Virus record (IMG/VR): IMGVR_UViG_3300033571_028777 | Location: 1-20,543 of that record | Strand: one strand, 5' to 3' | Length of the DNA stretch: 20,543 nt | Source of the DNA: a virus | Shown: one piece after another, positions 9,674 through 13,266 of the stretch | Position numbering within the stretch: the stretch's first letter is position 1 | Layout of the letters: every line of letters begins with the position of its first letter | Program-made: the position numbers and the translations under genes | The notes under the pieces: generated by a model | What the model was told of the DNA's origin: nothing | Databases searched by the model: none | The model's input: only the letters and a program-made list of their open reading frames with translations

Positions 9674-10345
9674 ATGAATATTGATATAAAGGGGGTTTTG
9701 AACAAAATTGCGCCTGCAAAGACGGAGGCTGTTGAGGTCACGACTGTTCAGGCTCCTGCGGAAACTACGCCTTTAGAGGCTCCTTGCCTGCCAATGAAGG
9801 AGGCTATAAAAAAGATGCCTGTTGAAGATGGTTGCGGATCTGCCGAGGAGTGGTTGGGAGATCTAGATAAATGGCCTTGCGTGTGTGTGGTTCCATCAGC
9901 AGATGTTTGGAATATAACGTGCGCCAAAGGCAAGACATGGGACGAGTTTTGGACTGAAGAACTCAAACGGAACATTTTAGGTAGAATTTGCACTGCCGTT
10001 AGGGATGCGTTAGACAGCGAATGCGTAAGGCTTTCTCCCTACATTAGAGAAATACCTTACCCTCTAAAGCTAGTCAGGCCACTTGATCCACGAAAGCCGA
10101 TGTATGTAGACAATAAGGGTAAAAAAAGGTATCTTGTGGTTGATATGGTGAACAGAGGCGCCATGAACGATTGCTGGTGGTGCCAAATAATGCTCAGGTT
10201 AACCTTTATTTGGAAGCTACTACTGCTGGTGTCAGGCTACCTGCAGGGCGGGAAAAAATTCAATGTAAACGAGTTTTACACTGAGATGTGGCAAACCGTC
10301 ATTAGTTGTGCAAGACATTGGTCGCCTACAGGGGTGATTGTTTAA
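9674..10345 (+). CDS. Cys-rich protein 1 with N-terminal tag, 223 aa
   Basis: I start at the ATG at 9674 because the protein then begins MNIDIKGVLNKIAPA, matching the tag on the four genes that follow; an in-frame ATG at 9626 would add an odd Tyr-rich lead and overlap the HNH start. The tag is followed by AVE at residues 19-21, a possible prohead-protease site. Ten cysteines are spread through the chain, and IMLRLTFIWKLLLLVSGYL near the C-terminus is hydrophobic enough to be a membrane or buried helix. It is a paralogue of the next product: both share W-P-x-V, ILGRIC/ILDRIC, IRDA-type helices and an F-(Y)T-x-T-(V/L) C-terminal helix with one Cys. No Shine-Dalgarno is evident. Probable virion-associated or injected protein (inference); family unknown. 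Confidence 0.75.
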   Translation: MNIDIKGVLNKIAPAKTEAVEVTTVQAPAETTPLEAPCLPMKEAIKKMPVEDGCGSAEEWLGDLDKWPCVCVVPSADVWNITCAKGKTWDEFWTEELKRNILGRICTAVRDALDSECVRLSPYIREIPYPLKLVRPLDPRKPMYVDNKGKKRYLVVDMVNRGAMNDCWWCQIMLRLTFIWKLLLLVSGYLQGGKKFNVNEFYTEMWQTVISCARHWSPTGVIV

Positions 10346-10346
10346 T

Positions 10347-11018
10347 ATGAGAACTAGAAACAACGCTCTTCTTAACAAGTTAGCCGCAGCCCTTTCAATT
10401 GAAAGGATGGACATGGTTCTTCCGCACGAGGAGATGGAGGGGTGTGTTGAGATGAAAGAGGCTTTTCCTGATCCAAACCCTTGCGCTTGGATGTTTTTCG
10501 GCAATATGGGCGCTTGGCCAAAGGTGGCTGTTGACGGAAAAGGAAATATAACCAAGGTTTGTGACAACAGTCCGACGCCACGGTGGGCGGTAGAAGGGCC
10601 TATATATCGAGGGATATTGGATCGCATTTGCAAGCTTATAAGAGATGCTGTCTACAACGGTCATCTTCAGATAGACCCCGAATTCAATGAGTTCAAGGGA
10701 AGATACATAAAGCAGAATTTTGACTGGAGCACACCGGCCTTAGGACCGTACACAGATAATGGATATGTATTTAGTGAAATATTTCCTAGATGGCAAGAGG
10801 AAAGGGATGGCAACGCCTTCCAATGTTTTGATAACGGCTTGGGTAATATGAAGGAGATACTTGAAAAATTAAAGAGGTATTACAGAGGAGCTGGCGGCAT
10901 TGGCGAAGAGACGATTTTGGGCGATGGAGGTCGTGGATGGAAGAGTTTCGCAACAGATTTTGTAAATACGCTTGTTGACTGTGTTTTAGAAATAATAAAA
11001 GAGGGGATTCCGGCGTGA
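10347..11018 (+). CDS. Cys-rich protein 2 with N-terminal tag, 223 aa
   Basis: The ATG at 10347 follows AGGGGTG and starts one base after the previous stop. The tag is MRTRNNALLNKLAAALSIE, ending in SIE at 17-19, a candidate cleavage site of the (S/A/G)-x-E kind. Downstream it resembles protein 1 (AWPKVAVDGKGNITKVC, RGILDRICKLIRDAV, and a C-terminal helix TDFVNTLVDCVLEII). It has six cysteines but lacks the hydrophobic segment of protein 1, and has a Gly-rich loop (RGAGGIGEETILGDGGRG). Its stop overlaps the next start. Function unknown; same inferred role as protein 1. Confidence 0.8.
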   Translation: MRTRNNALLNKLAAALSIERMDMVLPHEEMEGCVEMKEAFPDPNPCAWMFFGNMGAWPKVAVDGKGNITKVCDNSPTPRWAVEGPIYRGILDRICKLIRDAVYNGHLQIDPEFNEFKGRYIKQNFDWSTPALGPYTDNGYVFSEIFPRWQEERDGNAFQCFDNGLGNMKEILEKLKRYYRGAGGIGEETILGDGGRGWKSFATDFVNTLVDCVLEIIKEGIPA

Positions 11019-11740: not shown

Positions 11741-12531
11741 GTAGAATTAAAAATATCATAGCCAAGTTTATCGCTGCTGTTCAAGCTACGCCGCCTGATG
11801 CTCCAAGACCTGGATCAATACCGCTTCCGCCTACAGGCAGACCAAGGCAGCCGCCAACAGGTCCTACAAATACGCCTGCGCAGCCCCCTAATCCGCCAAC
11901 GCCAAGGCCATCGCCTCACAGGCCGCAATTCACTATGTGTCCAGACGAAATCATGGGGGAATGGCCGCCGAGGGTTCCTAATGGAAATACTAGCACCGCT
12001 AACCAATGCAAGAAGATAGAGACTCATTTTGCTCAACTGAGAAAGCACCTCAAGGAATGCGCAAGCAAGTGCAATTCTGATAATGGTTTAAATTACGATT
12101 GGACGACTTGTCTTAACAATAAGTGGAACGAATGGCTGATAGACCAACCAACTTCGTCTATAGCCCCTGTTGACATGACTGGAGTAATGGCCGCCGTTCC
12201 TTTTGAGATGCCTGAAAGCCCAATTCCTCAAGACGAGACCCCGTTTCCTCTAAGGCCAAACCTTTCCGGAACACAACTCAGAAACTGCAAGATTCACAGA
12301 AACAGGTGCGCTTGCAATGTGAGAAGAAAAAAACTTGAGCATATGCTAAAGCTTGCAGAGCTTGCAGAAAAATACTATTGGATGTGTCCGCCATACAATA
12401 AGGACGACGCAAAGACAAGATTCAAGAATGTTTGCGAGGCGCTTAAGATGGAAAAGCCCGCATCAGATACTTGCTCGCCAAACGCAGACTTTGGAGACGA
12501 TTGCAGAAAGTACTGCAGAAACTGTGTATAA
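11737..12531 (+). CDS. Cys-rich, Pro-rich protein 4 with N-terminal tag, 264 aa
   Basis: The ATG at 11737 overlaps the previous stop as ATGA and has GGAG at good spacing. The tag MSRIKNIIAKFIAAVQ lacks the x-E site of its neighbours and runs into a long Pro/Thr/Arg-rich linker (about residues 20-62). After this come 14 cysteines in the same order and spacing as protein 3: ECASKC, NCKIHRNRCACN, DTC and DDCRKYCRNC. The shared frame C-x3-E-x2-G-x-WP precedes them in both. The linker would suit a flexible, extended virion protein. Function unknown. Confidence 0.8.
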   Translation: MSRIKNIIAKFIAAVQATPPDAPRPGSIPLPPTGRPRQPPTGPTNTPAQPPNPPTPRPSPHRPQFTMCPDEIMGEWPPRVPNGNTSTANQCKKIETHFAQLRKHLKECASKCNSDNGLNYDWTTCLNNKWNEWLIDQPTSSIAPVDMTGVMAAVPFEMPESPIPQDETPFPLRPNLSGTQLRNCKIHRNRCACNVRRKKLEHMLKLAELAEKYYWMCPPYNKDDAKTRFKNVCEALKMEKPASDTCSPNADFGDDCRKYCRNCV

Positions 12532-12543
12532 AAAGATACTCAT

Positions 12544-13266
12544 ATGAAAAAACTAAATAATATACTATCTAAATTAAATTCCGCTTTTGCTGTTGAAAGA
12601 GATGTTACAGAAGCCCCGATGATGCAGGAGACAATACCCCCGCTTCCTTGGAGTGTAGATCAAAACCTCACAGAGATGTGCTGCGGCCTATCTGAGTGGG
12701 ATTTGATTGAGGCTACAATATGTGGCGAAGCCGCTGGATGCGAAGAGGATGCTAGACAGCGAGTCTGGGGTGTAATTGTCAATAGAGCAATGCCTGGAAC
12801 TCCAGCTGGAGAATCGCCCGATGTTTACAACAGAGGTGTTTGCAATCTAGACGGTTACGCAAGAGTCATAGGGCGTAAAAAGCAGTTCTCATGCTGGAAT
12901 GCAAATCACCCTTGTGGCGGAGGAGACCCTTTCGCTAGTTGCGAAGCATTAAAGGAAAGAGTCCGATGCTTGAAAAAACTCTGCGGAAATAGACCGGTGA
13001 ATCCTGGACAATATACAGGAACATCTGGACTTGATGCTCTTAAGAGGCTAGGCTTCACTGCAGAAGAAGCAGTAAAGGTTAAGCATTACATGACTCTAGC
13101 CGCTTTCCTTGGCTGGCCATATATTTGCGATGAAGCCAAGAATGCTGTAAGAAATGCTTCTCGCGGTAAGAAGTCTTGGGTTGGTTGTGTTACTGTAACA
13201 TGCGCTGGCAAGACCCATAAGATCTGCTCAGACGGCTGCCACGTGTTTATAAGCAATGTAGCATAA
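12544..13266 (+). CDS. SleB-type cell wall hydrolase with N-terminal tag, 240 aa
   Basis: After the tag (MKKLNNILSKLNSAFAVE) the protein shows the SleB / Hydrolase_2 pattern: EATICGEAAGC with the likely catalytic Glu, then a helix ARQRVWGVIVNRAM, DVYNRGVCNLDGYARVI, and KKQFSCWNANHP, the family's QFSCWN block. The C-terminal region has further Cys pairs (GCVTVTCAGK, HKICSDGC), about 15 cysteines in all. Known family members cut peptidoglycan glycan strands. Sharing the tag with four neighbours suggests it is carried in the virion to open the cell wall during entry rather than acting as the holin-linked endolysin; that is inference. The ribosome binding site is weak. It is the last gene of the operon. 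Confidence 0.8.
   Translation: MKKLNNILSKLNSAFAVERDVTEAPMMQETIPPLPWSVDQNLTEMCCGLSEWDLIEATICGEAAGCEEDARQRVWGVIVNRAMPGTPAGESPDVYNRGVCNLDGYARVIGRKKQFSCWNANHPCGGGDPFASCEALKERVRCLKKLCGNRPVNPGQYTGTSGLDALKRLGFTAEEAVKVKHYMTLAAFLGWPYICDEAKNAVRNASRGKKSWVGCVTVTCAGKTHKICSDGCHVFISNVA

Follow-up and report, generated by a model that had tools for sequence, protein, structure and literature searches.

A cysteine-rich gene island with a shared N-terminal leader

The 20,543-base record of an uncultured virus analysed here (the window) contains at positions 9674–13266 an island of five neighbouring open reading frames (ORFs), all on the + strand, whose products share an N-terminal leader. The first, cap1 (9674–10345, +), carries the leader MNIDIKGVLNKIAPA on a cysteine-rich body with 10 Cys. 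Its homologue cap2 (10347–11018, +) has the leader MRTRNNALLNKLAAAL and a body of the same family, with 6 Cys and 61% identity to its counterpart in the related locus L002. The GTG start of cap3 (11015–11740, +) overlaps the cap2 stop, and its product joins MRSLQGILNKLSAAM to a Cys-rich helical body (14 Cys); the homologous cap4 (11737–12531, +) has MSRIKNIIAKFIAAV, a Pro-rich linker and a Cys-rich body, also with 14 Cys. Finally, cap5 (12544–13266, +) combines MKKLNNILSKLNSAF with a SleB-like cell-wall hydrolase and has 15 Cys. The start codons of three of these ORFs are uncertain, as cap1 may begin at 9626, cap2 at a TTG at 10338 and cap4 at a TTG at 11722.

A previous reading of this DNA from its letters alone, the sequence-only reading, had described five adjacent Cys-rich proteins whose mature parts fall into three unrelated groups, one of them a cell wall hydrolase, and the description holds on all these points. 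In blastp comparisons among the five, cap1 is related to cap2 (E 8e-7) and cap3 to cap4 (E 5e-17), and the body of cap5 is related to no other. The assignment of cap5 as a SleB-type hydrolase comes from a PDB profile (4f55, spore cortex-lytic enzyme, E 2e-4) and an invariant G61-E62 pair; Pfam gave no match for this protein.

The leader is an amphipathic stretch of 12–18 residues, present on all five proteins, with the approximate pattern xx(I/V/S)(L/I)x(K/R)Lxx(A/V)(L/M/I). The motif proposed by the sequence-only reading is real and was drawn too short, since Lxx(A/V) is followed by a further hydrophobic position and frequently by x(A/V)A. When each leader was left out in turn and scored against the other ORFs of the window, the five ranked 1, 1, 1, 2 and 1 of 30. 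A profile built from the window leaders only, and scored against shuffled N-termini, was then run against the ORFs of four relatives (402 after removal of redundancy), where 13 matched at shuffle p<0.002 against 0.8 expected. Twelve of these 13 are candidate cargo, namely island genes, tandem Cys-rich genes or a protein with the AADYI domain described below. A wider profile, at score >12, matched 21 of the 12,238 windows that lie close to start codons and 8 of 83,312 elsewhere; as its training set included many of those leaders, the five-leader scan is the independent test. Tagged N-termini have a stronger hydrophobic moment, 0.59, as compared with 0.45 in control N-termini. For this comparison and the cysteine counts given below, near-duplicates were dropped (80 to 66 proteins), and matches in two protease-scaffold proteins of distant relatives (L223 and L233) were excluded from the tagged sets, as they were from the cleavage-site count.

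Distribution of the leader in the clade

Relatives were sought with the terminase large subunit of the window (17332–19353, +; phrog_9, E 3.6e-12) as anchor, which gave 26 loci and then 57 with alignment, including those 26. The same island is present in L002, L003 and L004. The genes flanking it in these loci, taken from the p14119 gene up to the terminase, share 71–93% identity with those of the window and the island proteins 22–61%; in L002 alone the values are 65–91% and 25–61%, indicating a hypervariable locus between conserved genes. All 14 island orthologues seen carry the leader (six in L002, five in L003 and three in L004), counting an L003 DUF5856 protein with a degenerate one. A 149-aa ORF of L003 (5137–5586), possibly spurious, is leaderless.

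In more distant members (L013, L018–L026 and L220), short Cys-rich proteins that begin with MSLEKSIQKLTQVIQAA or similar are encoded in arrays, together with either a tagged SleB or a tagged lysozyme of GH24-like type (Pfam E 5e-4, under the cut-off). Aligned on their K-L pair, the leaders of the island type and of the short Cys-rich type form one motif, hereafter the KL tag. In the clade member G002 the tag occurs outside the island on three tandem Cys-rich genes, and elsewhere on a KOW-like protein, for which no match was found among phages, and on an acidic AADYI protein. Altogether, the scan of 54 relative loci gave 71 matches with 47 distinct leaders, and at least six kinds of body are tagged: SleB, GH24-like lysozyme, DUF5856, AADYI, KOW-like and Cys-rich families. 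The shared tag is real and clade-wide. No description of it was found in the titles and abstracts listed by searches of an open literature library, which is no proof of absence.

Other features of these loci were also recorded. Two of the three tandem genes of G002 (32633–34188, −) have identical leaders, in near-identical DNA, and diverged bodies. Downstream (3') of the terminase gene in L005–L009 and L024, a tagged SleB gene adjoins terL on the opposite strand, and in L007 and L024 a short tagged protein with 4 Cys lies next to it. In G011 (37765–38448, −) and L020 (720–1391, −) a copy of the leader (VDILNKLSAAVG) lies within the protein, between a preceding DSAFLYIEAGGK-type domain and a C-terminal body, so the tag may also act internally.

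Leaders and cargo domains in different combinations

Two cases suggest that leaders and bodies have been recombined. In the first, residues 1–57 of cap1 match at 42% the leader and linker of a L002/L004 gene whose body is DUF5856, a Dps-like domain (Pfam E 5e-17). The similarity is also found in the DNA, where the 5' region and leader-coding stretch of cap1 (9645–9704, +) align with the 5' end of the L002 DUF5856 gene over 56 columns with a score of 57, including about 28 bases upstream of the start. The 5' end of the L002 cap1 gene gives no comparable alignment with that of cap1 in the window (score 23). By tblastn the window contains no DUF5856 body, and the sole significant match (9674–10012) is cap1 itself, beginning in the shared leader. 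On these alignments cap1 bears the DUF5856 leader on a different body, apparently the product of a leader exchange between cargoes.

The second case is the AADYI domain (K[IV]T[LK]A[ATN]DY), which is very common in viral contigs (at least 80 loci, L056–L135), often behind a start like the capsid targeting sequence (CTS) of phage T4. S-WAM2 and S-H9-1 are T4-like cyanophages of the Kyanoviridae. The last ~54 residues of a protein in each of them match the AADYI domain of G002, at 67% identity over 54 aa. The S-WAM2 protein begins MKTFKQLREE, comparable to MKTFKEF in T4 ipI and MKTYQEFIAEA in ipII and ipIII. Within the clade, the domain carries the KL tag in all five records that have it, among 25 searched, many of them short. 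Among the matches listed for other viruses, the start is T4-CTS-like in 30 of 41 AADYI ORFs shorter than 220 aa, in 34 of the 80 loci when ORFs of any length are counted, and in 68 of 358 other ORFs of the same loci, these controls being neighbours that are apparently rich in CTS starts themselves. It thus appears that the leader of this domain was replaced between lineages.

The two types of leader also seem to be separate codes that hardly mix. Clade ORFs have 19 KL tags in 361, a count made with a profile that these tags partly train, and three T4-type starts, none of them on a tagged cargo. Among the matches listed, ORFs of the T4-like AADYI loci have no KL tag in 493 and 91 T4-type starts, as counted with a regular expression chosen after looking.

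Properties of the tagged proteins

Cysteine makes up 3.67% of the tagged proteins against 1.44% in 293 control ORFs. Among proteins with at least four Cys the number is even in 47 of 55 tagged and 82 of 132 control proteins, counts that take in related and hence not independent cases; the tagged proteins with odd numbers are SleB homologues. Together with the Cys positions retained between cap3 and cap4 at about 25% identity, these mostly even counts hint that the Cys-rich cargo forms disulfides.

AlphaFold models of cap3 (mean predicted local distance difference test score, pLDDT, 69) and cap2 (mean pLDDT 72) have the same layout, in which a helix at the N-terminus (residues 3–17 and 3–15, respectively) is joined to a folded body by a linker of low confidence. 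Foldseek found no PDB match at E<=0.001 for either model, and Pfam gave nothing reliable for the Cys-rich cargo.

Genes around the island

On its left the island is bordered by a homing endonuclease gene of the HNH_3/NUMOD4 type (9278–9640, −; HNH_3 E 6e-17), kept next to the island in L002–L004. The usual right border is a gene for a CBM96-like protein (13279–13881, −; E 0.0097, below cut-off), with homologues in L002 and L004. The island lies 5' of a putative small-terminase region, which is followed by the terminase large subunit. In L003 the genes after the terminase, at 12024–17745, encode a portal-like protein, so called by position, a 670-aa protein and a capsid protein with an HK97 fold by NCBIfam (E 2.6e-7, below its cut-off). 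In the 670-aa protein (14081–16093), H102 and S184 are invariant and the C-terminal half resembles a coiled coil; it may be a protease-scaffold fusion, with the putative scaffold part at about residues 500–670. A Peptidase_S7 match to it (E 4e-4, just over the curated cut-off) was set aside as an unlikely family for a phage.

At about 9 kb the coding direction of the window turns from − to +, and its guanine-plus-cytosine content drops from ~60% (1–9200) to ~40% (9200–20543). The gene at 5469–5912 (−; E 5.9e-5) encodes an SLT lytic transglycosylase whose N-terminus resembles a signal peptide, so that the phage has an ordinary exported SLT lysin in addition to the tagged cap5. At 15519–16499 lies a nucleotide-sugar epimerase/dehydratase gene (phrog_540, E 7.5e-74), kept between the packaging genes of relatives. 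A megablast of the whole window against phages gave no match, single-protein scans of viral contigs with cap5 and cap1 gave none that was confirmed, and terminase and capsid profiles found no host or prophage among 84,980 species genomes.

Discussion

In the work of Mullaney and Black in 1996, the T4 internal proteins IPI, IPII, IPIII and Alt reportedly carry a CTS. We consider that the shared N-terminus of the clade is probably a sorting signal that works like this CTS and represents a new sequence type, with a probability of about 0.6. We favour this reading because the same leader stands on unrelated, fast-changing cargo, because cargoes appear to exchange leaders, and mainly because a T4-type CTS stands on the same AADYI domain elsewhere. 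The capsid-targeting idea of the sequence-only reading fits these three observations, and the leader is not a T4 CTS by sequence. In both systems a short N-terminal leader precedes unrelated, hypervariable cargo and has, as we read it, a helix-like pattern with hydrophobic residues at i, i+3, i+4 and i+7, and the AADYI cargo domain carries the T4-type leader in the T4 superfamily. However, the clade leader reads ILxKLxxAL and that of T4 MKT[FY]xxF, the clade cargo is Cys-rich, includes hydrolases and lies at more loci, and the capsid, protease and scaffold of the clade are putative. Thus, a tag that works like the T4 CTS without belonging to it by sequence is the best reading. For T4 itself, PMC3012670 and PMC9391042 treat the leader as a proven capsid signal.

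If so, the amphipathic leader helix and flexible linker would anchor the cargo on the scaffold core while the prohead is being assembled, the docking partner possibly being the scaffold part of the putative protease-scaffold protein. The cargo would be trapped as the shell closes, the leader might be removed, and the cargo would be delivered to the host at infection. There, the hydrolases could open the peptidoglycan locally and the disulfide-type cargo could work at the envelope or within the periplasm. The parts of this scheme with sequence evidence are the tag at multiple loci, the helix-linker-body models, the exchange of tags and the T4-type CTS on the same domain.

A homologue of one cargo speaks for such a role. 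The DUF5856 protein of Dickeya phage LIMEstone1 is annotated as "confirmed structural protein", and PMC3296691 reports mass spectrometry of this phage and places a group of structural proteins between ORF78 and ORF85. Several observations weigh against it. This DUF5856 protein is leaderless though virion-associated, so that this cargo needs no such leader there. Moreover, among 80 DUF5856 loci only the three of the clade are tagged, most copies in other phages being leaderless. Because of these two facts, the link to the virion is one of cargo homology and not of leader homology. The sequence-only reading had taken homologues that keep the mature part and lack the leader as evidence against its proposal; none was seen among the 14 orthologues inside the clade, and the DUF5856 homologues outside it are of this kind. 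Terminase relatives below about 45% identity, together with L226 (52%), had no tagged ORF among 380 at a stricter cut-off. The ratio of nonsynonymous to synonymous polymorphism (pN/pS) is 0.54 in the leader and 0.38 in the body, so the leader is not more constrained, as expected of a degenerate helix but also of a sequence with no function. A motif [AGSLI]xE at K+7 to K+10, which takes in the prohead-protease sites L/I-x-E and A/S-x-E and was found in 13 of 62 leaders against 5.9 expected (p 0.0035, with positions and residues picked after looking), hints at a protease site within the leader; this set excludes near-duplicates and one of the three G002 tandem genes. Regarding the assembly machinery, PHROGs, Pfam, NCBIfam and PDB gave nothing reliable for the putative protease-scaffold, and the capsid and portal proteins of the clade had no match in 50,697 phage records, where no cultured clade member was found. 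Finally, tagged Cys-rich genes follow a holin-like small gene in G002 and G011 (XhlA E 0.009 in one of them and no XhlA match in the other), which would fit a role in lysis.

The neighbourhood of DUF5856 in LIMEstone1 is also of note. Its neighbours ORF079 and ORF080 begin MKGFQDFLLKEA and MKPFIQYFNEQAA, which we read as T4-CTS-like, and ORF078–081 (L045) form a cluster of small proteins, several of them virion-confirmed.

Among the alternatives, the tag could target another part of the virion, such as the tail lumen, portal, baseplate or outer capsid. Peptidoglycan hydrolases are usual in tails, the GH24-like cargo also matches tail-lysozyme profiles, and crAss001 keeps cargo in its tail according to the portion of PMC10172136 available. 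On the other hand, the T4-type leader that stands in for the KL tag on AADYI is a head signal in the accessible text of PMC3012670, and so many unrelated, variable cargoes better suit a bulk container; we regard this location as unlikely. It is similarly improbable that the tag sends proteins to the envelope or a membrane of the infected cell, serving lysis or superinfection exclusion and not packaging. Amphipathic helices can bind membranes, and the hydrolases, the predominance of even Cys counts (47/55) and the position after the holin-like gene would agree with it. However, an inspection of the 62 leaders found no uninterrupted hydrophobic core of the Sec/Tat type, as a polar or charged residue occurs every 3–4 positions. 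Moreover, the SLT lysin of this phage already uses an ordinary signal-peptide-like N-terminus, and the AADYI and DUF5856 cargoes have no obvious envelope role, nor would such a signal be expected to be replaced by a T4-type CTS.

The N-termini might also be convergent or inherited coiled coils without a sorting role, arising for instance by recent duplication of a 5' end with its promoter. Some tags are indeed common at the DNA level (the G002 tandem genes, cap1 and DUF5856) and the leader is under no tighter constraint than the bodies, but the tag stands on unrelated bodies, at separate loci and in deeply diverged clade members, and duplication accounts neither for its retention only on such cargo nor for the T4-CTS replacement, which makes this explanation very unlikely. 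Least probable of all is a leader for a peptidase-containing ABC exporter (double-glycine or Nif11-like), which the MSLEK...QAA leaders of the short Cys-rich proteins resemble, since by inspection the 62 leaders have no conserved GG/GA end, the cargo reaches 360 aa and no exporter was seen, without any search aimed at one.

Considering the head-targeting signal that we prefer, other phages offer partial parallels. An N-terminal signal of fewer than 30 residues directs DarB to the head of P1, whereas the Dar proteins have no common N-terminal consensus in the available text of PMC9024508 and that of the clade is common to dozens of proteins. In SPN3US/phiKZ, head propeptides, some identical between the paralogues gp53 and gp54, are inferred to target the prohead; they are mostly longer than 100 residues and cleaved at AxE, as opposed to 12–18 residues in the clade leader (PMC5694885, in the part available). 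The virion of PhicrAss001 likewise stores many proteins, but the same portion of PMC10172136 describes no common short tag.

More tentatively, and at odds that we place below even, the clade of uncultured phages may possess a second, independently evolved capsid-targeting code, used for some 5–10 proteins per genome or more. Through it, cell-wall hydrolases and disulfide-forming cargo would be loaded into the head and delivered to the periplasm or envelope, and cargo domains would have crossed between this code and that of T4 by leader swap. If this is true, a simple sequence rule would list the proteins that a whole phage clade brings into its host at infection. These would be entry enzymes and first-line effectors, overlooked in annotation because database matches are lacking for most tagged cargo. 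It would also mean that such targeting codes have a repeated origin in evolution and that cargo switches between them by swapping a short leader, and it would provide a new packaging tag for protein delivery.

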